The notes beneath the pieces are model-generated. The model saw only the letters and a program-made list of their open reading frames with translations, was not told where the DNA came from and searched no databases. Made by a program: the position numbers and the translations under genes. 35,260 nt of DNA from a virus. Location of the stretch: positions 1-35,260 of IMG/VR virus record IMGVR_UViG_3300034374_004226; one strand, written 5' to 3'. Shown here piece after piece: positions 15,372 to 34,898 of the stretch. Position 1 is the first letter of the stretch. Every line of letters starts with the position of its first letter.

Positions 15372-15470
15372 ATGGCTCAGTGTGCAAATTGTGGTGCAAA
15401 GGTGGGATGTGGATGTCAGTTAACCAACGGTCTATGTGCTCATTGCAACAGTAATAAAAAAGGAGTATAA
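15372..15470 (+). CDS. Tiny cysteine-rich (zinc-ribbon-like) protein, 32 residues
   Basis: ATG at 15372, one base after the previous stop codon, to TAA 15468-15470. The product begins MAQCANCGAKVGCGCQL and continues TNGLCAHCNSNKKGV. It has six cysteines arranged as CxxC, CxC and CxxC, enough to bind one zinc with spare thiols. The near-contiguous spacing with the gene before it and the purposeful cysteine pattern argue for a real gene despite its size. The role could be structural, such as a small clamp in the virion, or regulatory. Confidence 0.7.
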   Translation: MAQCANCGAKVGCGCQLTNGLCAHCNSNKKGV

Positions 15471-15483
15471 ACATCACAAAGAT

Positions 15484-16704
15484 ATGTTAACACCCAGATT
15501 AACAAATTGTCAGGATTGCGATAAGATACCTGATCTACTTAAGAGTATAGATTGTAAGCTAGCAGAGTTTGGTAGCAATATGTACAATAATATTGTGTAT
15601 ATGTTGAACCAACCTGTACCAGCTACTACTATGCTCCAATTGTTAGCATACAAACGTATCCTAACATATAAGTATTGCAATCCTCATTATGCAGGTCAAT
15701 GTTCTGTTAACGATATTGCTGGTAAGGTGATTCGTTTAACAGCTGGATGTGTTAGCAGATGTAATGAACCAACAGTATGTGAAATCACTACATGTTGTGT
15801 TGATGTTGTACCAAACCCAACTACTACCACTACAAGTACTTCTAGTACTACCACTACGACAACTAGTACATCATCAACAACTACAACCACAACTACCATC
15901 TATCCAGATTGTAGAGTGGAGGGATGTTTTGAATTTATATCTACCTATGAATTAAGCTGTGTTATGTACTCTACTCCTGGTCAAGATTTTATATACGATG
16001 TTTCTAACGATACTACCACTGCAGTTTTATTTCTTAATAATCAGTATGGAACCTTCTTTGCAAACGCCCACACTAACACAAGGTTCTGGAAGGGTAACAG
16101 TCATACAGAAATTGTAGAATGGATTCCCTCAGACACACTAAATGTGCTTACTAGAAATAGAACCATATCAGTTACAGATGGTGCACTTGGCGTTACAATG
16201 AACAATGCTGGTCGCTTTGTATATCTAGCTCCAGTAACAAATAATCTTTTGTTAACTACTGTTCAGCGTAGCTCACAATCTAGTGATCTAGTTTCTCTAG
16301 ATATAAGTGATGATGTTATAGTTGATACTGATGTTACAACATTATTTGCACTTGATGTATATAGTAAATGTATAATGTATACATTAGATAGTAAATTAAT
16401 AACTGTAATTAATTCAGATGGCTCTTCTACTGGAACTATAATATTAAAACAATACTCATATCCAGATGGTGCACTAGAAGTTAGTCAAGTGTTACCAGGA
16501 ATAAATGCAAACGGTCAAGTAAATTTATTTCAAGACGGAGGTAAGTTATACTTATCACAAGAAGGATTTGGAATAGATAAAGTGTATGAAGTTAATTTAA
16601 CTACATATACATTAAGTTTAGTATGGGACAATAGTTCACAGCTAACAATACAACCATTCCATTCTTCATTACAGTGTAATGTTAACTCTTTAAGTACTCC
16701 TTAG
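15484..16704 (+). CDS. Cys-rich phage domain fused by poly-Thr linker to a propeller-like adhesin domain
   Basis: The start is set at ATG 15484 (MLTPRLTNCQDCDKIP). The frame is open back to a GTG at 15436, but that would overlap the tiny Cys-rich gene. Three parts are visible: a helical Cys-rich domain (residues 1-110, with LLAYKRILTYKYCNP); a linker of 26 Thr/Ser residues (113-138); and a beta-rich domain (about 141-400) with repeated strands and the motif IVEWIPSDTLNVLTRNRTIS, which looks like a beta propeller. The linker's exit, TIYPDC, resembles other linker exits in this window. The gene ends in TAG, and the frame then continues as TTTTTIP to TAA at 16728, so either the stop is recent or it is read through. 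A receptor-binding or fibre role is inferred. Confidence 0.72.
   Translation: MLTPRLTNCQDCDKIPDLLKSIDCKLAEFGSNMYNNIVYMLNQPVPATTMLQLLAYKRILTYKYCNPHYAGQCSVNDIAGKVIRLTAGCVSRCNEPTVCEITTCCVDVVPNPTTTTTSTSSTTTTTTSTSSTTTTTTTIYPDCRVEGCFEFISTYELSCVMYSTPGQDFIYDVSNDTTTAVLFLNNQYGTFFANAHTNTRFWKGNSHTEIVEWIPSDTLNVLTRNRTISVTDGALGVTMNNAGRFVYLAPVTNNLLLTTVQRSSQSSDLVSLDISDDVIVDTDVTTLFALDVYSKCIMYTLDSKLITVINSDGSSTGTIILKQYSYPDGALEVSQVLPGINANGQVNLFQDGGKLYLSQEGFGIDKVYEVNLTTYTLSLVWDNSSQLTIQPFHSSLQCNVNSLSTP
15820..15897 (+). repeat. Poly-Thr/Ser linker, 26 codons
   Basis: The encoded pattern is T5-STSS-T6-STSS-T7. The same 26 residues occur at 23289-23366 but are written with many different codons, including TCN for Ser here against AGT there. 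Confidence 0.9.
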
Positions 16705-16733: not shown

Positions 16734-19520
16734 ATGACAATATTTATAACATTAAGTTTAGCAGGTACAGAAACAGGTCCATTTGATCTGTATTCTAATA
16801 TTAATGGGTTCACTACACCATTTGACACTGGTGTTAGTAGATCAGCTCTATTGGCTGGATATCAGACCACTGCGCCCGATGGTACTGTTATTGTTAGACT
16901 AGATAACTTAAATCCGTTATGTGCCCCATCTACAACAGATATTTACACTTGTGCTAGACCAAACTGTGACTTCTCTGGAGAGATTATTTGTGATGTTACA
17001 ACAACTACAACCACTTCATCATCATCTACCACTACAACAAGTACTCTTTATCCAGGTGTAGCACCATGTACTTGGTCAACTTACGGAGGTAATCCTGGAG
17101 AAATAGCTGTATATGACTTTGACACTAACTCATCAACTGCTGTGCTAGTACCTAATGACTTTACAACCACTCAAGGAATCAACAGACCTATCTGCTCTAC
17201 AGGAGATAAGTTATGGTTGGCTAGTGTTACAACTGATAATACAGTGGCATATATTAGAGAATGGGATATAAACACATCTGGCCCATCACCAACTTTGTCT
17301 TATGTTAGACAAATAACTATTTCAGTGTCAACTCTTAGTTCTGGAAACATTTGGGGAAGAACTATATCTGCAATAGCTGTCACTGCTGATAATAATACAT
17401 TAATTGTAGGATTTGGTGATAAAATTGACGGTAATAATAGTAGTATGGGTGTTTACTCATGGGATATATCTACAGCTGGTAATATTACATTAAATGAGTC
17501 TAACAGAATAACAAAACAACATGTTGCATTTGTAAACACTTATGGAGTTTTAACAGAACTTACAGGAATGTTTATCACTAACAACAATAATGTAATTGTC
17601 TCTGCAAGATACTATGAAGACGCATCTTCAATAAATGCTGCAAATTATATAAAAGAGTTTGTAGGATTACCACCTGTAGGAGGAACAACAGTCGATTGGC
17701 TTTCTGCATCATCTGGTAAACCTACTATTAATCTACAGACTGTTGGTGTTCCTGAATTTACCAGTGTATGGACTAATCCAAGTAAAGCTATGCCTGTATG
17801 GGGCGTAAATGGATTATTACAAGTGATTCAACCAGAAACACTTGAGGTGTACAATATTAGTCAAACACCAAACTATGCTGCTACACTAGCAACTACAGTG
17901 GCCGATAATACTGTTTGGATACATACATCAACTGGTTGTGCAAATGTTGAAATCTTAAGTCAAGATGAAATCGATGATTGTACACCAACTGCACTACCGG
18001 TACTAGTAGCATCTAATGGTAGTAACTATATAGGACCTATTACATTTACTTATTCTGGAATGAGTGTGATAGCTTCTAGTAATATTATAGGAGGCTTATT
18101 AGCAAGTCCTGGTGGAGGATACACAACTGATTGTGGAATTACAATACCAGCATCATGTCAAGTGATGCATGGAAACACTTCTGGTGCAACATTAAACGCT
18201 CCAGCATTTAGTTATACATTAGAGTTTCCTGTTCCAGTTAACAACATTGCATTAAGAACAGCTATTCTTAATCCTCTTGATGATTTTAGATTCACTACAA
18301 ATGCAGCATCAACTACAATAACAATGGTTGCAGGATGTAGAGCAGCTGTTCAGAATGGTAATGAGCTTATTACAGGTTTTGATGCAAGTAGTCCTAATGA
18401 TGGTAGTGCAGAAGTTGTAGTGACAGGTTCTGAAGACTTCACAATACTAACATTTGTAGGAACAAATAGAGGAAATGGTGGCCCTTGGGCTTTAGGTTGT
18501 ACTGTACCACCTCTAGATTGTAGATTAGTTTATTCTACAGAATCAGCTGGTAGTAACAGTTGTTCTGCTCCAAGTAATGCAGGAAGATGTTTACCTGGAC
18601 AAAATTCATTTAAAAAATACTTTGCTTGGGATGTAAATACAAACACTCAACAAGAAGTATTATTACCACCAGGCACCGCAACAAATTCACCTAACTTTGC
18701 ATTAAGTGAAAACTACATTATTGTAGATGTTACATCACTTGTTACAGGTGTTAAAAGTTTAGCAAGATATGGATATACAGATGTAAATGGAATTCCTTCA
18801 AACACTACATTTGATGGACAATTTATTGATTATCCAGCAGGTGATGTAAGAAATTTTGGTAGCATCATGGAAGCAGTGAGTGACACCAAATTTTTAGGAA
18901 CTTGGCAATATGGTGCTGGTCTGCCTTTCCCAACTGCTGTAAGTCAAATATTGGAGTGGGATCTTTCAGCAACAACATTATCTTACAGTGTTAAAATAGA
19001 TGTAGGAGTAAATCACGGATATTTCGTTGCAGGAGATTTGTTATTGACATTTAAAACAGATGGCACTCCAAACAAGATAATAGCTATAGGTTTTGTTCCA
19101 CCATTACAGCCAGACAATAGTAATCCAGGATACTTATTACAATTTGATTATACAACAAATGCACTAGATGGAACTGTAAACTTACCAGCAGGTGTAAGAG
19201 GAAGCGCATCAATAGGTATATATGATGGAGGCATTTATATAGCTCCTGCTGATTGGAATACAGTTGCGCCAGAGTTTGCAGGAGTTTGGAGATGCGATTT
19301 AGAAACTTTACAGTGGACACAACTAGATCCAGTAGATGTGCCTGTAGAAATGGGTCTGCCATCTAGTGGACCTGGTGACTTTGCTGCCACTCCTGTATGT
19401 AGAGTTAGTGATGGTTTTACATCATTTGATCCAATACCAACCACAACAACAACCACTACCACAATACCTGAGGGTATAAATACAATATGGATGTGGTTTG
19501 AAACAGAAACACCAGCATAA
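16734..19520 (+). CDS. Large multidomain adhesin/fibre protein with two propeller-like domains
   Basis: A 928-residue protein. Residues 1-72 are a small beta domain whose core, GPFDLYSNINGFTTPF, recurs in five other genes here. Residues 89-104 are a Thr/Ser linker (T6-S4-T4-ST) exiting as LYPG. Residues about 107-420 are a beta-rich propeller-like domain with YIREWDINTSG. Residues about 425-600 are a beta-sandwich-like domain with Cys pairs, perhaps sugar-binding. Residues about 600-895 are a second propeller-like domain with QILEWDLSATTLSYSV. Eight Thr (903-910) then lead into a 17-residue tail. There is no signal peptide, as expected for a virion protein. It probably binds the host surface as part of the tail fibres. 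The short tail looks like the first strand of a lost domain. Confidence 0.72.
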   Translation: MTIFITLSLAGTETGPFDLYSNINGFTTPFDTGVSRSALLAGYQTTAPDGTVIVRLDNLNPLCAPSTTDIYTCARPNCDFSGEIICDVTTTTTTSSSSTTTTSTLYPGVAPCTWSTYGGNPGEIAVYDFDTNSSTAVLVPNDFTTTQGINRPICSTGDKLWLASVTTDNTVAYIREWDINTSGPSPTLSYVRQITISVSTLSSGNIWGRTISAIAVTADNNTLIVGFGDKIDGNNSSMGVYSWDISTAGNITLNESNRITKQHVAFVNTYGVLTELTGMFITNNNNVIVSARYYEDASSINAANYIKEFVGLPPVGGTTVDWLSASSGKPTINLQTVGVPEFTSVWTNPSKAMPVWGVNGLLQVIQPETLEVYNISQTPNYAATLATTVADNTVWIHTSTGCANVEILSQDEIDDCTPTALPVLVASNGSNYIGPITFTYSGMSVIASSNIIGGLLASPGGGYTTDCGITIPASCQVMHGNTSGATLNAPAFSYTLEFPVPVNNIALRTAILNPLDDFRFTTNAASTTITMVAGCRAAVQNGNELITGFDASSPNDGSAEVVVTGSEDFTILTFVGTNRGNGGPWALGCTVPPLDCRLVYSTESAGSNSCSAPSNAGRCLPGQNSFKKYFAWDVNTNTQQEVLLPPGTATNSPNFALSENYIIVDVTSLVTGVKSLARYGYTDVNGIPSNTTFDGQFIDYPAGDVRNFGSIMEAVSDTKFLGTWQYGAGLPFPTAVSQILEWDLSATTLSYSVKIDVGVNHGYFVAGDLLLTFKTDGTPNKIIAIGFVPPLQPDNSNPGYLLQFDYTTNALDGTVNLPAGVRGSASIGIYDGGIYIAPADWNTVAPEFAGVWRCDLETLQWTQLDPVDVPVEMGLPSSGPGDFAATPVCRVSDGFTSFDPIPTTTTTTTTIPEGINTIWMWFETETPA
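16998..17045 (+). repeat. Poly-Thr/Ser linker, 16 codons
   Basis: The pattern T6-S4-T4-S-T is followed by LYPG. It joins the small N-terminal beta domain to the first propeller-like domain. Confidence 0.85.
19440..19463 (+). repeat. Poly-Thr linker near the adhesin C-terminus, 8 codons
   Basis: Eight Thr codons are followed by IPEG and a short 13-residue end, so this linker has almost no domain behind it. Confidence 0.8.
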
Positions 19521-19531
19521 ACTAATATAAT

Positions 19532-20878: not shown

Positions 20879-20891
20879 AATATAAATTACC

Positions 20892-22028
20892 ATGTCAAAT
20901 AATTGCTCAAATTGCTATAACGGATGTACTGAGATCACCTCAGATAAGTGCGTTAAATATACAGGGGTAGATGTCCCTGTTCTAGGAATAAAAAATGGAG
21001 ACTCTCTATCATATGTAGAACAGGCTCTAATAACTTTTTTAAGTTCTACATTAGATGGAACAGGAATCATTCCTGTAATCCAACCTTCTGATGTATGTTC
21101 AAGTGTGGATGAAAACTTACCAAACTGCGATCCTATATCATTAAATAACTGGCTCACAGCTCTTCTAAAATCGTTGTGTGCTCTAGAAGATACAGTGGCT
21201 AATATTCCTTCAGGTAATCCAACTGTAGCTTATGATGTAGATTGTCTTTCAGTGAGTGATGCTACAAGTACAGTAGATGTATTACAAGCTATAATATATA
21301 AAGTGTGTAATGTAGCTGAGCAACTTACAAGCTTTGTAACATATGTAGATACTACGTACGTAAAGATTTCAGATATTAATACGTACATTCAGAACTATCT
21401 AGATACAGCACCAAGTGCGCAACTAGTAGCAAACAGAATGGTTCCATTCTCAATTGTTGCTGCTGCAGGTGGTTCTGCATTTTTAGCTAATTTTAATGCT
21501 TCTGGAGCAGGTATTGGTAACTGGGACCGCATCTACTTGTGTAATGGTCAAAATGGAACTCCTGATTTAAGAGGTAGAGTGTTAGTTGGTGTTACTAATG
21601 GAATGGGTAGCACTGCACTTGACCCTGCTGTAGATCCTGGTATATCAGGAAACCCAAGCTATGGATTAGGAAGTACACATGGTAACAATAATGTAGTGTT
21701 AAGTACAGGTCAACTTCCTGCACATAGTCACGCTAATACTGCAGTCTCTACAATTACTCCAGAAAATCACTCACACTTGTCCGTTGGTGCTGAAAGTGGA
21801 GGAACTAATTTAAATGCAAATGATCCAATAGAACCTAGTTATTCTACTGGTGGAAACTTTGGATATGGTTTAAGAAGTTCTACAAATGGAGAAGGGGTCA
21901 CTGGTAAGACTAATGATGTTACCTTATCTGTAGACACAACAATTACAAATGTTGAAACTGGAGGTGGACAGGGACATCTTAACTACCAACCTGGACGTGG
22001 AGTATATTATATAACTTACATACCTTAA
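20892..22028 (+). CDS. Tail-collar-domain fibre tip protein
   Basis: A 378-residue protein. The N-terminus is Cys-rich (MSNNCSNCYNGCTEITSDKC), followed by a helical shaft-like region with several cysteines (to about residue 180). The C-terminal part resembles phage tail-collar and microcystin-dependent-protein domains: WDRIYLCNGQNGTPDLRGRV (about 214-233), then GLGSTHGNNNVVLSTGQLPA and HSH, and the final HLNYQPGRGVYYITYIP. In that family the His-rich loop region binds metal in trimeric fibre tips, and the tip contacts host receptors. It follows the protease gene by 13 nt and precedes a smaller Cys-rich protein with a similar central segment. It is likely the distal tip of a short fibre. Confidence 0.82.
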   Translation: MSNNCSNCYNGCTEITSDKCVKYTGVDVPVLGIKNGDSLSYVEQALITFLSSTLDGTGIIPVIQPSDVCSSVDENLPNCDPISLNNWLTALLKSLCALEDTVANIPSGNPTVAYDVDCLSVSDATSTVDVLQAIIYKVCNVAEQLTSFVTYVDTTYVKISDINTYIQNYLDTAPSAQLVANRMVPFSIVAAAGGSAFLANFNASGAGIGNWDRIYLCNGQNGTPDLRGRVLVGVTNGMGSTALDPAVDPGISGNPSYGLGSTHGNNNVVLSTGQLPAHSHANTAVSTITPENHSHLSVGAESGGTNLNANDPIEPSYSTGGNFGYGLRSSTNGEGVTGKTNDVTLSVDTTITNVETGGGQGHLNYQPGRGVYYITYIP

Positions 22029-22041
22029 AACATAAAATAAA

Positions 22042-22377
22042 ATGGCATACCTACCTGTAAATCCTTGCTGCACTGGTGTAGTTTTAAATAGTCCTTGTGG
22101 ATGTAGTAGCACTTGTAATTGCAACTCTACTACAAACTCTTGTGGCACCAGTGGTGCACTTTCGAGCACAATTGTATACAATGGTCCTACACTTCCTGGT
22201 TCAGGAGTAGAGGCTTGTGATACACTCAATGTTGCGTTATCAAAAATAGATGAGGTTCTTGTACAACTTAAGAATCAAGTAGCAAATAACACTGCTGCTA
22301 TTTCTTCTATTACAGAACAAATTATTGACATAAACGCACAGATAGTAACAATTAATAACAACTGCTGCCCATCATAA
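22042..22377 (+). CDS. Cys-rich protein with C-terminal coiled coil, 111 residues
   Basis: The N-terminus is very rich in Cys, Ser, Thr and Asn (NPCCTG, CGCSSTCNCNSTTNSCG). The middle, VYNGPTLPGSGVEACDTLNV, precedes a coiled coil (ALSKIDEVLVQLKNQVANNT, then repeated Ile/Asn heptads), and the protein ends NNCCPS. The segment around the last Cys before the coiled coil resembles the corresponding part of the collar-type fibre protein upstream, so this may be a short trimeric fibre stalk without a tip, or its partner. The family is not recognised. Confidence 0.68.
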   Translation: MAYLPVNPCCTGVVLNSPCGCSSTCNCNSTTNSCGTSGALSSTIVYNGPTLPGSGVEACDTLNVALSKIDEVLVQLKNQVANNTAAISSITEQIIDINAQIVTINNNCCPS

Positions 22378-22379
22378 TC

Positions 22380-22634
22380 ATGACAGTATTACTAACACTA
22401 ACTACAGCAGGAACTGATGCTACGGTGTTTGATTTATATTCAAACCTCGATAGTTTTACCACTGCTTTTGAAACAGGCGTAAGTAGAGCATCTCTAATTG
22501 CTGGATATTCTAGTGCACTGGTTCCAGATTTTACAACCATTGTAAGAATACAAGCTACAGAAAAGTGTGTAAACTTCATAGACATAGTGTTAGAAAACAC
22601 AACCACAACAACAACCACAACAACACCACCGTAA
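22380..22634 (+). CDS. Single small beta domain ending in a poly-Thr linker, 84 residues
   Basis: It starts 2 nt after the preceding stop. Residues 1-71 are one copy of the recurring small domain (FDLYSNLDSFTTAFETGVSR, then a GY turn, then TIVRIQATEKC). Nine Thr follow (codons 22599-22625), then PP and the stop, so the gene ends exactly where other proteins here continue into another domain. It could be a truncated adhesin, a product of module loss, or a deliberately short tail component. It has no membrane segment and no enzymatic motif. Confidence 0.7.
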   Translation: MTVLLTLTTAGTDATVFDLYSNLDSFTTAFETGVSRASLIAGYSSALVPDFTTIVRIQATEKCVNFIDIVLENTTTTTTTTTPP

Positions 22635-22637
22635 GAT

Positions 22638-23678
22638 ATGTTGATACAAATAAACATAACAATCCCTCCTGGAGGTTCTGCTGGACCATTTGATTTATAT
22701 TCAGATGCAAATGGGTACACTGCTCCTTTTCAAACGCAAGTTCCTGCTGCAAGTTTAACTGCTGGATATATTGTTGAACTTCCTGTGGGAGCAACTATTA
22801 TACGAGTGTGTTCTGTTGGTACATGTGAAAATTGTATTGACATACCAACTAATTGCCCAACAACAACCACTACATCTACTAGTACAACTACTAGCACATC
22901 TAGTACCACTACAACAACAACCACTGAGGCTCCTCCATATGAGTTTACATGGGAACTTATTACAGGAACCCCTTTAAATATAGGAAATGTAAAACTTCAA
23001 ATATTTGTAGACACTATAGAGGTGGTCACTTCGATAATTAGTGTTGGCAATACATATCAATCAGGAACATTATTCCTAACCGCTGGTCAAGTTGTAACAG
23101 CAACAATGGGTAATGTTAAAACTGGTACATATAACTTTGGTAACAAGATACTTAAGGATGGACTTTTATATCAACCACAAGACAACTGTACGCCTTGTGT
23201 AAATGAGTTAATTACACCACTGTTCTCTCCATATACAATGGGAAGTGCTGATACTATATGGATATTCCAAGGTGATGTGAATTCTCCTACAACAACCACT
23301 ACTAGTACAAGTAGTACAACAACAACAACCACTAGTACAAGTAGTACAACAACCACCACCACCACATTGGCACCACTTGATTGTGCGTTGAATGGGGGAT
23401 CAGCTGTAATTGAACCCGTGCCATCTAATATATCAGCGGATGGTCAAGAAGGTGTGGATTGCAATATAGATACACCAAACATTGTATACATTGATCAACA
23501 AAATCTTACTACACTAACTGCAGGAGATATTGTATATACTAATGTGGGGCAGACAAATGTATTTTTAGGTGGAAGTTTGTGGTGGAAAATTGCTCCAACT
23601 GGTACAAGTGATACATTTAGTGCAAGAATTACTGATGCAGGTGTTGTTCTAGCAACTATAACAATCTGTACTCCCTAA
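22638..23678 (+). CDS. Three-domain adhesin with two poly-Thr linkers
   Basis: A 346-residue protein. Residues 1-73 are the recurring small domain (GPFDLYSDANGYTAPF). Residues 75-96 are a linker (T5-STS-T3-STSS-T7) exiting EAPP. Residues about 98-216 are a beta domain beginning YEFTWELITGTPLN and ending SADTIWIFQGD. Residues 218-243 are a second linker (T5-STSS-T6-STSS-T7) exiting LAPLDC. Residues 244-346 are another beta domain ending in a Cys (ITICTP). The last domain shares a GxxVY/IY-turn layout and terminal Cys with part of the muzzle protein extension (near 32750-33070). It is probably a virion surface or fibre protein that binds host glycans. Confidence 0.72.
   Translation: MLIQINITIPPGGSAGPFDLYSDANGYTAPFQTQVPAASLTAGYIVELPVGATIIRVCSVGTCENCIDIPTNCPTTTTTSTSTTTSTSSTTTTTTTEAPPYEFTWELITGTPLNIGNVKLQIFVDTIEVVTSIISVGNTYQSGTLFLTAGQVVTATMGNVKTGTYNFGNKILKDGLLYQPQDNCTPCVNELITPLFSPYTMGSADTIWIFQGDVNSPTTTTTSTSSTTTTTTSTSSTTTTTTTLAPLDCALNGGSAVIEPVPSNISADGQEGVDCNIDTPNIVYIDQQNLTTLTAGDIVYTNVGQTNVFLGGSLWWKIAPTGTSDTFSARITDAGVVLATITICTP
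22860..22925 (+). repeat. Poly-Thr/Ser linker, 22 codons
   Basis: The pattern T5-STS-T3-STSS-T7 is followed by EAPP. It joins the small N-terminal domain to the next beta domain. Confidence 0.85.
23289..23366 (+). repeat. Poly-Thr/Ser linker, 26 codons, same residues as at 15820-15897
   Basis: The pattern T5-STSS-T6-STSS-T7 matches the linker of the gene at 15484 residue for residue. The DNA here has an internal 30-nt near repeat beginning ACTAGTACAAGTAGT, twice. Confidence 0.9.
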
Positions 23679-23689
23679 AACAATAAACT

Positions 23690-23920
23690 ATGGCAGCAAC
23701 AATGACAATAAGACTAACCTCAGCAGGTGTTGATACAGGTAATGTCAATATTTACACAAATGCAGATGGATATACTGCAGTACTAGAATCTACAACAACA
23801 GCAGTGCTCACTGGTCCATTTGGGCTTACAAATGTGGCTTTACCTTCTGGTGCAACCATTGTGAGGATACAAAATGTAGGTGTATGTACTAACTATGAAG
23901 ATATAACAATTACCTTCTAA
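23690..23920 (+). CDS. Stand-alone small beta-domain protein, 76 residues
   Basis: This is a single copy of the recurring domain with no linker: a TSAGVDTGNVNIYTNADGYT core, then a Gly-rich turn and ATIVRIQNVGVC near the end. It is more divergent than its neighbours (NVNIYT replaces PFDLYS). An alternative start at ATG 23702 would align better with the N-termini of the other copies. It lies 11 nt after the three-domain adhesin and 2 nt before the next copy. Products of this size could be assembly partners or subunits of a multimeric fibre base. The function is unknown. Confidence 0.65.
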   Translation: MAATMTIRLTSAGVDTGNVNIYTNADGYTAVLESTTTAVLTGPFGLTNVALPSGATIVRIQNVGVCTNYEDITITF

Positions 23921-23922
23921 TC

Positions 23923-24150
23923 ATGACAGGAGCAGTACAAATACATACAATAGGCACAGCCCTTCAGACGTTCTATCTTTATTCAGATATCAACGGATTC
24001 ACTGCACCTTTTGCATCAGGTGTAACAAGAGATGAACTACTAATAGGATATGCAACAGATCAAATACCAAACTCAACAGCAGTCATTAGAGTGATGTCAG
24101 TTGATGTTCCTGGTAAATATTTAGATATTAGCACATCACCTGTAGCGTAA
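23923..24150 (+). CDS. Stand-alone small beta-domain protein, 75 residues
   Basis: Another linker-free copy of the recurring domain: FYLYSDINGFTAPFASGVTR, then LLIGYATDQIP and AVIRVMSVDVPGKYLDIS. The start is 2 nt after the previous stop. It is the last gene before an intrinsic terminator and closes the fibre/adhesin operon. The core motif is closer to the copies at 16734 and 22638 than to its immediate neighbour, so the array is not a simple recent tandem duplication. Confidence 0.68.
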   Translation: MTGAVQIHTIGTALQTFYLYSDINGFTAPFASGVTRDELLIGYATDQIPNSTAVIRVMSVDVPGKYLDISTSPVA

Positions 24151-26792: not shown

Positions 26793-27761
26793 ATGGCATA
26801 CTACTATAAATATAATTTCATTTCCCCAGAACCCATTTACGCCACTGTAAAGGAGGAGCTAAAAAGCTATTTTGATACAGGAGCTGTCGATGATTTGTTG
26901 TTCCCTACCTACTTAGACAAATGTCTTAAGAAGCTAGGAAGAGCTACTTATGTAATCAGTGAGCAAGTTTTGTTCATAGAGGACTTTGAAGCAAGACTTC
27001 CTGATAATTTCTATGCAGTGAGAGAAGCATGGATGTGTGCAGAACTCCCAGGCAACCCCTATCCTTCAGCTACATCATTTTACTCTCAAGCAGCAAATGC
27101 TACAACTATTCAGATATCTCCACTCACTATAGGAGGAACACCTTGTAATAATCCAAGTTGTCAAAACTCTCGTTGTGATGGAACATGTATGCCTGAGTTG
27201 GTACAAGCTGTGTATAAAACAAACAATGCGATAGCAAGATCATACAGATATGAGTATCTACTAAGACCAGGTAATATATCTGCAAGACAGAACTGTGATG
27301 TATCATATAGAAATGACTGGAACAACTATGCACCTCCTGTACGTGAATTCACACCAGGTTCTGCAAGCTATGACTCATTTGATATTAGAGATAATAAGTT
27401 TGTAACCAACTTCAGAAATGGTGTTGTGCATCTAATATTCTATGCTACAGAATATGATGATATAGGTAATCAACTAGTTCCAGATAACTATCGTGTATCA
27501 GAATTTGTTGAGGCGTATATAAAATACAAAGTGTTTGAAACTCTTACAAACCAAACTAATGATGAGACATTCAACCAACTTCAGCAGAAACTAGCATACT
27601 ACAAACAGCTTCATGATGAGGCCTTTATAATGGCTAGCATTGAGATTAAGAAACAAACTCCATGGGAAAAACAACGTAGAGTTAAGAAAGATCTCAATAG
27701 ATTTAATATGTATGAGCTTCCCAACCGTACAAATAGATACGGTAGAAGACGTAACAATTAA
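26793..27761 (+). CDS. Probable tail ring/tubular protein, 322 residues
   Basis: It begins MAYYYKYNFISPEPIYATVK. The N-terminal helical part (VDDLLFPTYLDKCLKKLGRA) and FEARLPDNFYAVREAWMC are reminiscent of T7-type tail tubular A/adaptor proteins, in which a helical bundle carries a beta sandwich with a L-P-x-D/N-F step. A Cys-rich insertion lies near residues 117-135 (CNNPSCQNSRCDGTCMPE). The C-terminal helix (QLQQKLAYYKQLHDEAFIMA) and basic end follow. The gene sits directly before the muzzle gene (5 nt), as expected for a ring protein contacting the muzzle. Confidence 0.72.
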   Translation: MAYYYKYNFISPEPIYATVKEELKSYFDTGAVDDLLFPTYLDKCLKKLGRATYVISEQVLFIEDFEARLPDNFYAVREAWMCAELPGNPYPSATSFYSQAANATTIQISPLTIGGTPCNNPSCQNSRCDGTCMPELVQAVYKTNNAIARSYRYEYLLRPGNISARQNCDVSYRNDWNNYAPPVREFTPGSASYDSFDIRDNKFVTNFRNGVVHLIFYATEYDDIGNQLVPDNYRVSEFVEAYIKYKVFETLTNQTNDETFNQLQQKLAYYKQLHDEAFIMASIEIKKQTPWEKQRRVKKDLNRFNMYELPNRTNRYGRRRNN

Positions 27762-27766
27762 GAAGA

Positions 27767-30700
27767 ATGGCTACACAGGAAAACAAAAAAAGCACTGAGC
27801 AGAGTAACATACGCTTAGAAATGGGTGTTGCTAGAACAGGACTAAACTTGGACAGCTCTATTGATCAAGTAGGTCCTGGAAGACTCACTTATGCTTTAAA
27901 TGCAGCAGTGGAGAACTTTGATGCAAGCACTATCAATTACCAGAATGAACCTGGTAATGAGTTATGCTTAGATTTTCCCACTGGCTACAAGTTGATTGGT
28001 AGCCACTTTATTCCAGAAAAGAAGAAGAACATATTCTTCTTAGCTAACCCAAATACAGGAGATAGTGAGATTGGGTATATGTACAACAATGATTGTCAAT
28101 ACCAAACACTTGTAAATGCTCCCTGCCTTAACTTCAATATAAATAACCCCATCCCTAAAGTTATACATAGAATCACAAACTGTACAACAGAAATCTACTG
28201 GACAGATGGAGTTAACCCCAGAAGATATTTAGACATAGAAAACATTCCATATAAACTTATAGCAGGAACTCCTAGCTGTAGTCCTGTATATGGTGATGAA
28301 TTAGATTGTAACCAACTTAAGTTACAACCTGACTTCTCAATACCTTTTTTAGAGATTTCTGAAGTTGTAAATGTAGGCGCTTTAGTTGCGGGTACCTATC
28401 AGTTTGCAGTGCAATATGCAGATGCTTCAGGTAATGAGCTTACCTCCTACTACTCAATAACTAACCCACTTCCAATTGCTGATGAGATTATTACAACAGT
28501 AAATTTTAATTATAACGTTGGGAAGTCTATTGTTGTGGGTGTGTCCAATCTTGATTTAACAGGACAGTTTCAATACTTCAACTTAGCTGTAATAAAAACA
28601 ATCAATAATGTACGCTCTGCTGAACTTGTAGGTACGTACAATATTGAGGAGCCTACAAAAGAAATAACCTACACAGGAGCAGATCAAACAGCTATCCAAC
28701 TATCTATTTATGATATTCTTGAGAAGTTCCCATATTATGATATAGCTCAAGATGTTACAGCTGTACAGGATGTTATTGTATGGGATAACCTAACATCTAT
28801 TGATAGAATCAACTATCAGCCTATAGCAAGTCAAATAACACTTAACTGGGAAACACATAGAATACCAGCAACAGAAAACTATGCAAATGAATTAAACGCT
28901 GTAGATCTTCGTGGATACATGCGTGATGAAGTGTATGCATTTGAAATCGTATTCTTATTAAAGAATGGTAAGCAGACAGATGGCTTTCATATCCCAGGAA
29001 GAGAGCGAGGAGCTAATGAATCTTTCCCAGATATTCCTGACACAAATGATGATTTTATTGGAGAACCTGATTACTATATTGGTGATGTAGGTTATAAGTC
29101 TTATTGGAAGGTGTATAACACAGGATCTGTAATAGCACCTTCTCCTGGCCAATCTAACAATACAAACTACAAAGGACCATGGGAATATGGTGAATTTGCA
29201 TACTGGGAATCAACAGAAGAATATCCATGTAACGATGATGTATGGGGAGACTTAGCTGGACAGCCTATTAGACATCATAAATTTCCAGATGTTCTAGTAA
29301 GTCCTATCATTCAGAATGGTGACATTACATACAGTAATGATCAGATTATTCCTGTAATGCAGAATGATGCTGTGTTCCCAATGGGTGTAAGAGTGGATAA
29401 TTCACAGATACAATCATTGATACAAACCTCTAGCCTAACTGATGAACAGAAAGATGATATTATTGGTTACAAGATTGTAAGAGGAGACAGAGGAACAAAC
29501 AAGTCTGTAATAGCAAAAGGTATACTTAGAAACGTAAATAAGTATACTAGAGATGAAGAAGACTACTACTATCCAAACTATCCATACAATGATTTAGGAG
29601 GAGACCCATTTGTATTAGCAAATAATAATGCATGGGCTCAGCAAGCAGAACCTTGGTTAATTACTTATCAAGCAAGTTCAAATTATCAGTACAACTTTTC
29701 TTCAGGGACATGGGCTGTAAATATAGTCTACCAACAAGGGGATGGAGTGTATCAATACACAAGCCCTTTAAATGGTAAAGTGACACAAGCAAAAATTAAA
29801 CCAGGACAAACTATTGAAATATGTTCTCTTACCAGACCAATAGGTCTAGTAGGTAGAATGACAATAGGTCCTGGTAATTATGATGTTTGGGGATTATCAG
29901 CACCAAACTGTGGAGGGTGGGGAGCTGAGTGGATAGATCCTTTTACAAATGATAACTCTCCTGATGTTTATGCTAGTGAATGGTTAGAAGGATGGAGTTG
30001 CTTGTGTGCTGAGGCAAATGAAGAAGTATTTGCAAGAGTAGAAGTTGGAGCATCCACAGGTACATATGATGGAGGTAGCACATGTTGGGCATGTCCTTGT
30101 CAATCTAATAAAAATAGAGTTTTAAAAGAAGCTTTGGATATGCCTCCTGGTGAAATTACTCGTTCAGATAGGGGAAGAAGATCTACATTAGGTTGTAATG
30201 AAGAAATACCACAACCTACACTTGAGGAGCAAGAAGATGGAACAGTAGTGTATCGACAGATATTTAATTCTCCTGATACATCTTTTGGACAACCATTCTT
30301 AGGAAGTGTTCTAAAGCTTGAGAGTGTAATGTTTGGGGGTGGTAAAGCTCACTTTGTTCAAGTTGAGGACAATGCTAAGTACAAACTTCTCTCTAAAGAA
30401 GCACAAATAGATGCATTAAATAGTGCAAGATCTGTTGCTGGACTAAGTGGCGTATTCAATGCTAGTATTATGTTTACTGTTTACCAGTCCTACCTAACTA
30501 TCTATGTAAATGGAATTACAAGAAAGAATTACGCAATGTCTTTCAATTCCAGAGCTAACTATGACTACTCATACCCAATTGATAATGGTCTTGGACTAAA
30601 ACAAAGAGACATTGATTTTACCAGATACTTAATTCCTGGTGTACAATCTCTTCGTGGTGATGAGTTATCAATTAACAACTGGAACAGAGAGACATCTGTT

Positions 30701-33700
30701 TTTATAAAAACAATAGAGACTAGAGAAGATGGTGCGTCAGTTTCTGCCCTACCGTTTCCGAGTAACACCCCAAGTTTACTTACACCCTCAGGAACTCCTT
30801 CCATTGTTGATGATTCTAGATTTACAATAGGTGATAAAGGAGTGTGTGATAAACCTGGAGAAGAACAAGATATATCTGTAGTTTCATATTACGGATCAAT
30901 GAAAAACATTGTCCTTAATCAATGGGGTCAGATATACTCATATCAAACAATTGACACAGGGTATCAGAAACTTACAGGAACTTCAGGAACTTCTACTGTA
31001 TTTGGTGGAGATGTATTCATTTCTAGATTTGCATTTAAAACAAAACTTCCACTCTTTATTGATAACAGAGTGAGTGCTCCTGATGATAGTGATGTGTTCT
31101 ATGATGAGATTGGAAACATTGGTTATCCCAAGTACTGGCACTCTTCAAGATCAATACTAGAAGACTATCCTGGAACAGTTGCTACCCCTTTTGGAGGTAG
31201 TGTGAGCGGTATAGAGTTTACAAATATCATATCGTACAAAGCTCATAATTTTGATTGCCCCAGTGACCCTGCTACTATTCCTCCAGGGCGTGGTGCAGCA
31301 AGAACATTCTATGATGGGTACTTCTACTTATTTGCATACGGTATTCCTAATTTCTATTGTGAGACTGTTTATAACACAGACTTACGTCAGGCATTTAATA
31401 ATAAAGAAGGAGACTTCTGGCCTCATGTAAGTTCTGGTATTCCTGATGATTGGTTACAAGAAGTAAATGTACCTATCGCACAGGACAACACATACTATTA
31501 CAATGTAACCTACTCTAAGCAAAACAAAGAGAATGTATTTACACACCTTCCTCCTGATTGGGAAGAAGATTTGTGTTTTACCTATTTCCCATTTAGAGCT
31601 ATTTACTCTGATGCAGCTACAGATAGTGCTGATGTTAGAGTTAATAACTGGTTGGTTTACAGAGCTTTATCTTTCCATGATTTCCCTCAGAACTATGGTG
31701 CTCTTACATCATTAGACGGTATTCAGAATAAAGCTATACTTGCTCGATTTGAGAACAAGTCGTTGTTATACAATAACCTTCTTACAATTGACACAAGTAA
31801 TCCTCAAGCTGCGTACATTGGTAATCCTAAATTATTTAGTGGAGCTCCTCCAATTGACTTTGCTGAAACAGATTTAGGATATGTAGGAAGTCAGAATAAG
31901 TTCTTATTAAAGATTCCTCAAGGTCAAATCACTTTAGATGCTAAGAGAGGTCAAGTGTTTTTGGTTGCAGGTACACAAGTAACAGACCTTACAGGATTTG
32001 GCTCAGGTGTTAGTCGATTCTTTATAGATCACCTTCCATTTGAAATACTACAATATTTCCCAAATGTGCCAACAGATAATCACTTTAATGGTATTGGGGT
32101 TCATGGAGTTTGGGACAGTAGAATGGAGAGAGTGATTATTACAAAGCTTGATTATATTCCTATTGATGATAGAGTTCAATATGACGAGACTACAGGAGAG
32201 TTTTACATAGAAAGAGGTGGAGCTGCAATTGTTGTACCTCCTCCTTTCCCTGAACCAGTAATGCCAGAACCTGAGCCAGTAATGCCAGAACCTATAGACA
32301 CCATTAGTAGAACAACAACAACCACTACTACTAATAAACCAGTAAGGCAACAAGTATATCTAGAAGACCATACTTATTTCTGTAATAGATCGTGGACTAT
32401 CTCCTTCTCATTCAATACAAAGAGTTGGATTTCTTTCCATTCATATATTCCTAATTTCTACATAGGAGAAAACAACTTCTTCTATTCAGGAACAAATGGA
32501 TGTTGTTCAACTGATGGAGTTCCTAATTTACAAGTGTTGGCTGGCACCTTATTACCAGTTAGTACAATAACTACAACTACAGCTGTTCCACCACCAGTCA
32601 CTCCAACAACTACCACTACCAGTACTACAATAGATGATACACTAGAAGATGGGGTATTTATTCCTACAGATTGTGATCTTGTTGGAATAGGATTGATTAC
32701 AGTTCCTCCAACAACCACCACTACAATTTGTCAAAGACCACCGTCTGCTGTATTTGTTCTTTTTGAAGGCTATCAAATTATAGGAGAACCCTCCCCAGTA
32801 ATCTCATCTGGAAGTGCTCAAGAAGCTTGTGATGCTAGTAAATTTATACCGTTAGCATCTAATCCAGAAGATCCTTCTAATACAGTTCTTGCAATTACAT
32901 TTGCTGCTCAAGCTCAGTCATTAAATGTAGGTCAAACTATATACTTTGGAGAAGGAACTAATTGTACACTAGTTTCTGATGGATGGTACTTTACTTCGCA
33001 AACTGGATCTGAGAATTATGTATTCTATGTAGGTGGTGGAGTTATTCAAGATTTATACGATTGTAATTGTGTACAAACTACAACAACAACAACTACTGTG
33101 ACACCTTATATAACTGAGTGTTGTTCTGTTATAGTTGATTTAGGAAATGACGTGTTAACTGCAATTAATATTGATAATGATATTGTTAACTTAACTATAC
33201 CTGGATTTACAACAACTACAGCAATTGCTCTTACATCTAATAAGCTATGGTCACTTTCTTCTAATATTGAAGAATGGGATATTATATTGAATCCATTTGA
33301 AGCAACAGCTAGCAGAACAATTACATCTCCTGTAGGGTTTGGAACTGCTTCTGGAATAGCAGCAAAGGACAACTTGACATTAATTGCTGCAGACAACACT
33401 GTTTCTCCAGAAGAGATTGTAGAGATAGATATTACTACAACCACATCTACAATGTCTACAGTAATTATACTTCAGGCAAACAGGAATGCTTTTAGTAATC
33501 CTTTATATACTACTGATGGAAAATTATTAATTGTAAATCAAGATAGTGTATCATCTGATTACTATCTATCTCAATATGACTACTCATCAGGAACATTAGA
33601 CGTTGAAACAAATATGGGATCTGTGGACGCAAATGTACTATTTGAGTGTAATTGTGTAATTTGGCTAATGACAGCTTCAGGTGACACCTATTTTGTTTCT

Positions 33701-34021
33701 CCTGATTCTTCATATTCTTTGATTCCAGGAAGTAATATAGGTTTTGGTTCTAATATAACTTCAGCCTCTCAGATACTATCTTGTGTAGGTCAGGCTTTAA
33801 CTAATCAAACCACAACAACAACAACTAGTTCATCAACTACAACCACTACCACTACACTATCACCAACTTGTAATGAGTATGAAGTGACTGGACCAACAGC
33901 ATTGTATTATACAGATTGCTATGGACAACAGAGAGCTCTAAGTGTGTCTTCTGGACAGACTCAGAATGTGTGTGCAAGTGTAGCAATTCCTGGAGCAACA
34001 TTAATCGGAACTTGTACATAA
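27767..34021 (+). CDS. Tail stabilisation (muzzle) protein, N-terminal and central part, with a C-terminal adhesin extension
   Basis: A 2084-residue protein, the largest in the window. The N-terminus (LSSIDQVGPGRLTYALNA-like segment, then INYQNEPGNELCLDFPTGYK, about residues 57-76) is characteristic of the tail stabilisation proteins of crAss-like phages, which form the mouth of the tail. Core sequence continues to about residue 1578, with a Pro/Glu repeat (1496-1509), a seven-Thr insert (near 1516-1522) and the conserved-looking CNRSWTISFSF and WISFHSYIPNFY (about 1538-1564). After GTNGCC the protein changes character: poly-Thr linkers, beta domains, a propeller-like domain (about 1780-2012, motif SNIEEWDI), another T6-S3-T7 linker (about 2014-2029) and a 50-residue Cys-containing end. 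The expected remainder of the muzzle is encoded by the next gene. Confidence 0.82.
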   Translation: MATQENKKSTEQSNIRLEMGVARTGLNLDSSIDQVGPGRLTYALNAAVENFDASTINYQNEPGNELCLDFPTGYKLIGSHFIPEKKKNIFFLANPNTGDSEIGYMYNNDCQYQTLVNAPCLNFNINNPIPKVIHRITNCTTEIYWTDGVNPRRYLDIENIPYKLIAGTPSCSPVYGDELDCNQLKLQPDFSIPFLEISEVVNVGALVAGTYQFAVQYADASGNELTSYYSITNPLPIADEIITTVNFNYNVGKSIVVGVSNLDLTGQFQYFNLAVIKTINNVRSAELVGTYNIEEPTKEITYTGADQTAIQLSIYDILEKFPYYDIAQDVTAVQDVIVWDNLTSIDRINYQPIASQITLNWETHRIPATENYANELNAVDLRGYMRDEVYAFEIVFLLKNGKQTDGFHIPGRERGANESFPDIPDTNDDFIGEPDYYIGDVGYKSYWKVYNTGSVIAPSPGQSNNTNYKGPWEYGEFAYWESTEEYPCNDDVWGDLAGQPIRHHKFPDVLVSPIIQNGDITYSNDQIIPVMQNDAVFPMGVRVDNSQIQSLIQTSSLTDEQKDDIIGYKIVRGDRGTNKSVIAKGILRNVNKYTRDEEDYYYPNYPYNDLGGDPFVLANNNAWAQQAEPWLITYQASSNYQYNFSSGTWAVNIVYQQGDGVYQYTSPLNGKVTQAKIKPGQTIEICSLTRPIGLVGRMTIGPGNYDVWGLSAPNCGGWGAEWIDPFTNDNSPDVYASEWLEGWSCLCAEANEEVFARVEVGASTGTYDGGSTCWACPCQSNKNRVLKEALDMPPGEITRSDRGRRSTLGCNEEIPQPTLEEQEDGTVVYRQIFNSPDTSFGQPFLGSVLKLESVMFGGGKAHFVQVEDNAKYKLLSKEAQIDALNSARSVAGLSGVFNASIMFTVYQSYLTIYVNGITRKNYAMSFNSRANYDYSYPIDNGLGLKQRDIDFTRYLIPGVQSLRGDELSINNWNRETSVFIKTIETREDGASVSALPFPSNTPSLLTPSGTPSIVDDSRFTIGDKGVCDKPGEEQDISVVSYYGSMKNIVLNQWGQIYSYQTIDTGYQKLTGTSGTSTVFGGDVFISRFAFKTKLPLFIDNRVSAPDDSDVFYDEIGNIGYPKYWHSSRSILEDYPGTVATPFGGSVSGIEFTNIISYKAHNFDCPSDPATIPPGRGAARTFYDGYFYLFAYGIPNFYCETVYNTDLRQAFNNKEGDFWPHVSSGIPDDWLQEVNVPIAQDNTYYYNVTYSKQNKENVFTHLPPDWEEDLCFTYFPFRAIYSDAATDSADVRVNNWLVYRALSFHDFPQNYGALTSLDGIQNKAILARFENKSLLYNNLLTIDTSNPQAAYIGNPKLFSGAPPIDFAETDLGYVGSQNKFLLKIPQGQITLDAKRGQVFLVAGTQVTDLTGFGSGVSRFFIDHLPFEILQYFPNVPTDNHFNGIGVHGVWDSRMERVIITKLDYIPIDDRVQYDETTGEFYIERGGAAIVVPPPFPEPVMPEPEPVMPEPIDTISRTTTTTTTNKPVRQQVYLEDHTYFCNRSWTISFSFNTKSWISFHSYIPNFYIGENNFFYSGTNGCCSTDGVPNLQVLAGTLLPVSTITTTTAVPPPVTPTTTTTSTTIDDTLEDGVFIPTDCDLVGIGLITVPPTTTTTICQRPPSAVFVLFEGYQIIGEPSPVISSGSAQEACDASKFIPLASNPEDPSNTVLAITFAAQAQSLNVGQTIYFGEGTNCTLVSDGWYFTSQTGSENYVFYVGGGVIQDLYDCNCVQTTTTTTTVTPYITECCSVIVDLGNDVLTAINIDNDIVNLTIPGFTTTTAIALTSNKLWSLSSNIEEWDIILNPFEATASRTITSPVGFGTASGIAAKDNLTLIAADNTVSPEEIVEIDITTTTSTMSTVIILQANRNAFSNPLYTTDGKLLIVNQDSVSSDYYLSQYDYSSGTLDVETNMGSVDANVLFECNCVIWLMTASGDTYFVSPDSSYSLIPGSNIGFGSNITSASQILSCVGQALTNQTTTTTTSSSTTTTTTTLSPTCNEYEVTGPTALYYTDCYGQQRALSVSSGQTQNVCASVAIPGATLIGTCT
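32252..32293 (+). repeat. 21-nt tandem repeat encoding EPVMPEP
   Basis: GAACCAGTAATGCCAGAACC and its continuation T are followed by a second copy differing in one base (GAG for GAA). It encodes a Pro/Glu spacer just before a seven-Thr tract inside the muzzle core. Confidence 0.75.
32569..32640 (+). repeat. Poly-Thr/Pro linker region in the muzzle extension
   Basis: The segment encodes TITTTTAVPPPVTP and then T5-S-TT. It lies a few residues past the end of recognisable muzzle core sequence and marks the beginning of the adhesin extension. Confidence 0.75.
33808..33859 (+). repeat. Poly-Thr/Ser linker near the muzzle C-terminus
   Basis: The pattern T6-S3-T7 is followed by LSPTC. It joins the propeller-like domain to a 50-residue terminal domain (with YYTDCYGQQRALSVSSG). 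Confidence 0.8.
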
Positions 34022-34031
34022 TAAATTAACT

Positions 34032-34898
34032 ATGAGTAAGCCTATTGTAATAAAATTAACCTTTTCAGGACCTAACGCAGGACCCTTTGATATATTAACT
34101 GTATCAGAAGAGGTTTTGCGTGCAGACGTTTCTAGAGAAGAGCTTATTAATGGAATAGTAGTTAACATAGATCCAGTAGAAACTTTAATAGTTATTAGAT
34201 CAAAAGGAGAGTGTCAGTTTGATCAAACAGTTGTTCTAGAAAATATTACAATGCAAGAGTATGAAAATGCTACGTACACTCAAGACACTACAGGATGTTT
34301 GTGGACACATTTAACAAATACAAGTATATACAATTACTATTATGGAAATATAGAACCATTTGTTCTAGAATACCCATTTGCATATAACTATCAAGATGAG
34401 ATATTGCAGAATGTAAAAGACTATACTAAGGTGTACAAATACTTACCATCTATACCAGGAACATTTGATACTAATAGAAAGATACAAACTAATAAAGAAT
34501 GGTATAACAAAGCTATCCTATATAACGGACAGCAGTGTTCAGGCGTATTGAATCTTGTACCCAAGCCTGAAAACAACCTAGCAGCATATCTACAATACCC
34601 AATACTAAATACAGACAGTAAGACAATCACATTTACTAAGAGTGATAGCTTCTATCAGTATAATACATTCTGGGCATTACAAATTGATGATGAGGTTCCA
34701 ATGTTCAAAACCTCTTGTAAGTCCTTGTCTGTAGACAAGGTGATCAACCAAGATAATATGGACTATGGAAGTAGATCATTCAAGAAAGCAACACTAAGAG
34801 CTAAGAACTTAAAGGTGAGACACATTCTTGATAACTCCTCAACAACACATATTATTAGTCAGTTTATTGTAACACCAGCACAGATATCATATAAGTAA
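34032..34898 (+). CDS. Detached C-terminal part of the muzzle protein fused to a small beta domain
   Basis: A 288-residue protein. Residues 1-72 are a sixth copy of the recurring small domain (LTFSGPNAGPFDILT, VSREELINGIVV, LIVIRSKGEC). Residues about 85-288 read like the C-terminal section of crAss-like tail stabilisation proteins: GCLWTHLTN, YYYGNIEPFVLEYP, KAILYNGQQCSGVLNLVPKP, SDSFYQYNTFWALQID, NMDYGSRSFKKATLRAKNLK, and a final SQFIVTPAQISYK. In related phages, as I recall them, these segments follow the SWTISF/WISFHSY region of the same polypeptide. Here that region ends in the preceding gene. So the muzzle appears to be made from two proteins. The start is 10 nt after the previous stop. 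Confidence 0.72.
   Translation: MSKPIVIKLTFSGPNAGPFDILTVSEEVLRADVSREELINGIVVNIDPVETLIVIRSKGECQFDQTVVLENITMQEYENATYTQDTTGCLWTHLTNTSIYNYYYGNIEPFVLEYPFAYNYQDEILQNVKDYTKVYKYLPSIPGTFDTNRKIQTNKEWYNKAILYNGQQCSGVLNLVPKPENNLAAYLQYPILNTDSKTITFTKSDSFYQYNTFWALQIDDEVPMFKTSCKSLSVDKVINQDNMDYGSRSFKKATLRAKNLKVRHILDNSSTTHIISQFIVTPAQISYK

Follow-up and report, generated by a model that had tools for sequence, protein, structure and literature searches.

A probable split muzzle bearing adhesin-type modules in the crassvirus record IMGVR_UViG_3300034374_004226

Introduction

The muzzle is a gate of about 1 MDa that is highly conserved among crassviruses. In phi-crAss001 it is formed by gp44 (Pfam family PF25731; PDB 7QOK, 7QOL and 8CKB), a single chain of 1371 residues with IG2 at residues 318-1021 and a crass domain composed of residues 453-904 and 940-1012; both the family and its length variation through insertions in the crass and IG2 regions are already known from the structure paper (PMC10172136). 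Annotated muzzles of csAssE-Sib, Cellulophaga phage phi17:2, Leptolyngbya phage Lbo-JY46 and Flavobacterium phage Fpv1 are the nearest annotated homologues found for the locus described here. All annotated and solved members that were examined consist of one polypeptide, which is the usual state and not formally part of the definition of PF25731.

Among known cases in which two proteins have taken the place of one host-binding protein, the closest is the LtfA/LtfB pair in the branched lateral tail fibres of the T5-like phages DT57C and DT571/2. The single Ltf of relatives is replaced there by two proteins that both have receptor-recognition domains; LtfB attaches through LtfA and has an N-terminus like the fibre protein of an unrelated phage (PMC4728585). 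LtfA/LtfB is a tail fibre; in the present case the split runs through the fold of the gatekeeper muzzle itself, which presumably needs both halves to be complete. In Vibrio phage OWB, tail tubular proteins A and B are reported to bind the host receptor Vp0980, a precedent for a role of a tail tube/nozzle-class protein in adsorption; the abstract describes no insertion or gene splitting (PMC7241545). A literature search that covered few subscription papers or preprints found no account of a crass-like phage whose muzzle (tail stabilisation protein) is split, nor of one encoded in two or three chains that carry exchangeable modules where they break.

Here we present an analysis of such a locus in a window of 35,260 nucleotides, by which we mean the whole stretch of DNA studied (positions 1 to 35,260 of the IMG/VR record). 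We consider it highly probable that the window encodes a split, functional muzzle that bears adhesin-type modules.

Features of the muzzle locus

The window is marked as crassviral by the genes for ring protein 1 (PF24228, CrAss_Ring_1, 26793-27761) directly upstream of the muzzle, Ring_2 (PF25702, 25570-26298), the major capsid protein (PF23898, Crass_capsid, at 10079) and a P22-type portal. In place of one muzzle chain there are two open reading frames, P1 and P2 (Table 1), which lie exactly where the preliminary description had put them, separated by a TAA stop and ten bases. P1 matches the Pfam profile crAss_MUZ (PF25731) with an E-value of 1.7e-35 and 123 bits against a curated cut-off of 27, as well as phrog_37948 (E 1e-115) and phrog_15100 (E 2e-29). 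Residues 88-286 of P2 match positions 1588-1781 of the 1783 positions of phrog_15100, that is its C-terminal end (E 2.8e-11), and the profile search thus places P2 in the same family as P1 and not in an unrelated one. The muzzle C-terminal segment equivalent to gp44 residues ~1236-1371 is present in the window, but it is encoded in P2, as judged from structure comparison with VIA-align and from the C-terminal end of phrog_15100. The locus resembles gp44 in family, in the upstream ring protein genes and in the order of segments from N- to C-terminus; gp44, however, is one chain without an insert, whereas here there are two polypeptides, divided at a point near gp44 residue 1235 and with adhesin-type modules on the ends so created.

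Table 1. Features of the muzzle locus and related genes, in window positions
Feature	Position	Strand	Basis or remark
P1, 2084 aa	27767..34021	+	N-terminal and middle crassvirus muzzle, plus C-terminal adhesin-type insert; PF25731, phrog_37948
P2, 288 aa	34032..34898	+	Ig-like N-terminal module, then muzzle C-terminus
P1 TAA stop and ten-base spacer ahead of P2 start	34019..34031	+	
Long variable YPYNDL loop (P1 ~604-829)	29576..30253	+	Maps to crass-domain region
Pro/Thr-rich linker (P1 1484-1526)	32216..32344	+	Second-break site in three-chain relatives
Muzzle strands SWTISFSF...WISFHSYIPNFYIGENNFFYSG (P1 1527-1577)	32345..32497	+	Last muzzle-homologous part of P1; alignments to single-chain homologues
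Insert without counterpart in single-chain homologues (P1 1578 to P2 84), 1786 nt	32498..34283	+	Homologue alignments
Module a (P1 1660-1767), Thr-linked beta domain	32744..33067	+	AlphaFold2 model, pLDDT ~76-94; exchanged between near-identical relatives
Module b (P1 1787-2001), beta-propeller fold	33125..33769	+	pLDDT mostly >90; propeller matches, E to 2e-7; paralogue iE 1.9e-9
Module c (P1 2034-2084), small beta domain containing Cys, preceded by a Thr linker	33866..34018	+	pLDDT ~92
Ig-like 'GPFxI' N-terminal module (P2 1-84)	34032..34283	+	Family shared with N-termini of the phage's own fibre/adhesin-type genes
Muzzle C-terminal segment (P2 85-288)	34284..34895	+	Fold match to gp44 1242-1371, Z 5.6; phrog_15100 C-terminal end
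Thr-linker protein gene, C-terminal half a b-type module	15436..16704	+	HMM; module b paralogue
P2-type N-terminal module of 928-aa Thr-linker protein	16734..16900	+	HMM
Four consecutive genes, each opening with a P2-type module (22380, 22638, 23690, 23923)	22380..24150	+	HMM

Single-chain homologues carry both parts in one polypeptide: Lbo-JY46 (1654 aa), csAssE-Sib (2257 aa, annotated as muzzle), phi17:2 (2289 aa), Fpv1 (1783 aa), FpV4 (1961 aa) and ten further loci, among them the MT837925 scaffold and environmental contigs. The muzzles of csAssE-Sib, phi17:2 and Lbo-JY46 share 27-34% identity with P1 over ~60% of its length and that of Fpv1 25% over 23%, and P2 is 16-24% identical to single-chain C-termini. 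These four annotated muzzles have the same junction sequence as the window, but they are unsplit and without an insert at the hairpin. The motifs LWTHL, YYGNIEPF, LNLVPKP, YNTFW and ISYK, placed by the preliminary description directly after the WISFHSY region, do follow it directly in single-chain muzzles, so that the region from LWTHL to ISYK is part of the unsplit protein. Pairwise alignments join P1 1575-1578 to P2 ~85-90 with at most about ten residues between them; in Lbo-JY46 the local match to P2 begins earlier, at residue 63, and overlaps the P1 match that ends at 1575. Since single-chain homologues connect P1 ~1577 to P2 ~85, the insert measures 1786 nt, close to the cassette of about 1.75 kb with its own stop and start codons that had been proposed, and it consists of three Thr-linked modules (a, b and c), the stop, ten bases, the start and the Ig-like module. 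In csAssE-Sib a gene annotated as TnpB, an RNA-guided endonuclease, lies directly upstream of the muzzle gene (L163:1374-2597).

Position of the break in the muzzle fold

Searches of P1 and P2 against PDB sequences with phmmer and profiles matched no muzzle, and the link to the solved protein came only from structure comparison and from profile alignment to gp44. The latter places the junction near gp44 residue 1235, between EFYAFKDG and KMWEQF. The AlphaFold2 model of P2 (mean pLDDT 73) aligns over residues 94-284 with the last 130 residues of gp44 (1242-1371) in VIA-align, a moderate match (Z 5.6, 3.8 A, 9% identity), and muzzle chains were the sole long structural match to this part. The P1 model had pLDDT mostly below 50 in its muzzle part, too low a quality for a structure search there. 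The break is at a turn, a hairpin judging by the sequence pattern, close to where the propeller region ends. In chain order it comes after IG2 and the crass insertions, and the last ~130 residues begin there.

The suggestion that receptor-binding domains stand at the tail mouth found no support. The distal part of the muzzle is the crass domain, and the chain continues for another ~220-330 residues before it reaches the insertion, at about gp44 1235 at the end of the propeller region, which does not fit such a placement. The part of the window muzzle that may really be at the tail mouth is the YPYNDL loop. It measures 172-458 aa in 55 split muzzles and is itself unsplit, against ~30 aa in Lbo-JY46, csAssE-Sib and phi17:2, and it also diverges between near-identical relatives. 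A c-type module as the content of this loop was considered and rejected, since the HMMs for modules a, b, c and the P2-type module gave no matches there.

A second break occurs in relatives between P1 ~1484 and ~1526, in the loop after TKLDYIP. Most two-chain phages have a linker of 36-45 aa at this site and L012 a 144-aa in-frame insertion, whereas three-chain phages are split there, either with a tail of 10 aa (L028) or with tails of 250-315 aa, in which Pfam detected Fib_succ_major in all four cases tested. The middle chain of three-chain muzzles contains only about 50 muzzle residues, followed by adhesin modules.

Modules of the insert

Modules a, b and c matched no Pfam family, and the structure matches of module b are dominated by propeller structures. 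HMMs built from relatives and applied to the window found the Ig-like module of P2 (hereafter P2-type) at the start of the genes at 16734, 22380, 22638, 23690 and, after one more iteration, 23923, whereas shuffled window proteins gave no matches to the module HMMs. The fibre/adhesin-type genes of the window with modules related to b and to the Ig-like module lie at 15.4-24.1 kb. One of them (15436-16704) ends in module b and the next opens with a P2-type module, so that the order module, stop, start, module is the same as in the muzzle insert. A P2-type module is present in P2 of all 105 relatives; outside muzzles it is N-terminal in 164 of 169 cases in relatives, and some of the proteins that it opens end in module a (L106 5866-6441). 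A c-type followed by a P2-type module across a gene boundary was also found in L029, L031 and L071. The best fold matches of P2 1-75 include type IX secretion C-terminal domains (T9SS CTDs; 8gl8_D, Z 5.9), with other Ig-like folds scoring equally well; in P2 the module is at the N-terminus.

The stretch 16734-24150 of the window is an array of Thr-linker proteins that open with a common Ig-like module of ~75 aa. Within the fibre/adhesin array a 448-aa protein (19532-20878) has the trypsin-like motifs GLTNNHVT and GDSGSAL and matches phrog_20754 (protease, E 4e-17); it is a possible virion or fibre-processing protease.

Distribution of the split among relatives

Two IMG/VR scans yielded 106 complete non-redundant loci, the window included. 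The muzzle is split in every one of them, into two chains in 79, three in 25, and with a further break in the N-terminal part in 2 (L048:7173-7372, 803+875 aa; L126:13759-14000, 1263+516 aa), which could be a frameshift, an intron or a true further split. In a FastTree tree of the muzzle core one branch with full support (100) separates the split loci from 15 single-chain muzzles, and the three-chain state requires at least six changes inside the split clade; the branching order among the single-chain rows is unsure because these sit on long branches. As the second scan used N-terminal peptides only, a bias from searching with P2 does not explain why no unsplit close relatives turned up. The proposed insert with its own stop and start is supported, but the split did not arise in this phage: it is an old state of the whole clade of uncultured crass-like phages.

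The P2 core is under purifying selection, with dN/dS values of 0.05-0.19 where measurable; the Ig-like P2-type module gives 0.24-1.7, the extremes resting on few changes.

A scan of viral contigs with the C-terminus of Lbo-JY46 found no relatives, and a scan of genome contigs found one locus, on a short contig in a MAG labelled Tissierellales. This contig is probably misbinned phage DNA and so gives no evidence on the host. In L179, a contig that is probably phage contamination in a Tissierellales MAG, the gene right after P2 (2301-3080) resembles a GIY-YIG homing endonuclease by eye.

Exchange of modules

Near-identical relatives differ sharply in their inserts. Core proteins are 94% identical between L017 and L018 and 91% both between L021 and L022 and between L106 and L113; in the same pairs module a is 35-39% and module b 43-44% identical. 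L017 and L022 have a b allele in common (96%), L018 and L021 an a allele (95%). At the DNA level the drop at the insert site is confined to the a+b segment, with edges in or beside Thr-codon tracts, and the YPYNDL loop is the sole other site with a comparable drop. The window itself is closest to L001 and L004 in its core (up to 77%) and in module c (86-89%), whereas its modules a and b are nearest to those of the more distant L016. Strong diversifying selection could produce a mosaic of a and b, but the sharp edges argue for exchange of these modules between relatives.

Insert sizes range from 410 to 5347 nt. The locus L125 has three whole genes between the muzzle halves, one of them with Fib_succ_major, and in L179 the chain upstream of P2 contains a ConA-like lectin domain (PF13385). 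L125 also has, between its muzzle halves and beside the Fib_succ_major adhesin, a small ORF (15542-15862) in which a motif resembling those of nucleotidyltransferases (FGSYLHGFWDEFSDYDV) was noted by eye. Domains of the Fib_succ_major type have been listed among the targets of diversity-generating retroelements (PMC4159848); no reverse transcriptase was matched among the 22 window proteins scanned with Pfam.

Proposed origin and alternative explanations

In the explanation that we propose, P1 would supply the N-terminal part of the muzzle, the Ig domains, the crass domain and most of the propeller, and P2 85-288 the end of the propeller region and the segment equal to gp44 ~1236-1371, with the two chains presumably completing one subunit non-covalently in the virion hexamer. 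We infer that the ancestral muzzle was a single chain into which, at a beta-hairpin turn, a stretch of a fibre/adhesin gene array like that of the phage itself was inserted. This stretch would have brought the distal modules and stop of one adhesin gene, followed by the start of the next gene with its N-terminal Ig-like module. A piece of an array that spans a gene junction is the simplest origin, because the order module, stop, start, module recurs in adhesin arrays, and insertion of one such cassette is rather probable. The Thr-linked modules would be displayed on the flank of the muzzle near the propeller/ring junction as auxiliary host-recognition domains, and would be replaced by recombination in or next to the Thr-codon linkers.

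It is also quite possible that fission at the exposed hairpin came before any module, and that the C-terminus and the N-terminus so formed later each acquired modules by a fusion of their own, with no single cassette involved. The second break displays all the stages of such a course, namely the short linker, the in-frame insertion of L012, the nearly module-free split of L028 and the split with Fib_succ_major; the main site, however, is never split without a P2-type module (105 of 105), and adhesin arrays also contain the arrangement in which a b- or c-type module, a stop and a start precede a P2-type module. P2 might instead be a separate tail protein, an adaptor or decoration that resembles the muzzle C-terminus, with the muzzle working without that segment. 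This is very unlikely: P2 is indeed a gene of its own with the low identity to single-chain C-termini given above, but it supplies exactly the segment that P1 lacks and keeps the gene order, purifying selection acts on its core, and among the loci examined no relative has a P2 gene beside a full-length muzzle.

Introns, inteins and stop recoding are all known from Crassvirales (PMC7886860), and the break could in principle reflect one of these, a frameshift or an assembly error. That the loci are 106, non-redundant and from many metagenomes, and that the insert modules have adhesin-type paralogues, makes an artefact of any kind exceedingly improbable. In all relatives a stop closes the chain that precedes P2; it is TAA in 100 of 105 cases, and the frame of P2 relative to P1 can be any of the three. 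Read-through and sequencing error are thereby excluded as general causes, and stop recoding and frameshift were rejected. An intron was rejected as no Rfam family matched in the window, and an intein as no intein Pfam family matched in the P1 insert.

That the muzzle is encoded as two chains with adhesin-type modules on both, as the preliminary description had held, agrees with the profile matches, homologue alignments, module paralogues, clade and fold match. Because the modules are exchangeable, fast-changing, have lectin-type relatives and are attached to a tail-tip protein, they are probably best read as host-recognition domains. It is unlikely that they are structural or stabilising decorations of the muzzle such as gate guards: Ig-like and propeller folds are generic and host recognition is deduced from sequence, but modules a and b are swapped between near-identical genomes, amino-acid change is raised in the Ig-like module, and lectin-type domains stand at the same sites in relatives.

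Implications

For annotation, P2 is a protein that would normally be entered as hypothetical, and searches of environmental crass-like phages by their muzzle would meet proteins that look truncated. With a muzzle cut at hairpins of the propeller region, exchangeable adhesin-type modules on the cut ends and a detached C-terminus under purifying selection, the clade shows at which points the muzzle fold can be broken and which of its surfaces is free. Tentatively, the muzzle may be viewed as a multi-chain scaffold whose break points are open docking sites, at which adhesin modules or even whole adhesin genes (L125 has three genes between the halves) could be inserted and swapped with the gatekeeper fold undisturbed, and which might couple host recognition directly to the gate rather than only through separate fibres. 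Such an arrangement suggests a direct physical route from receptor binding to movement of the gate.
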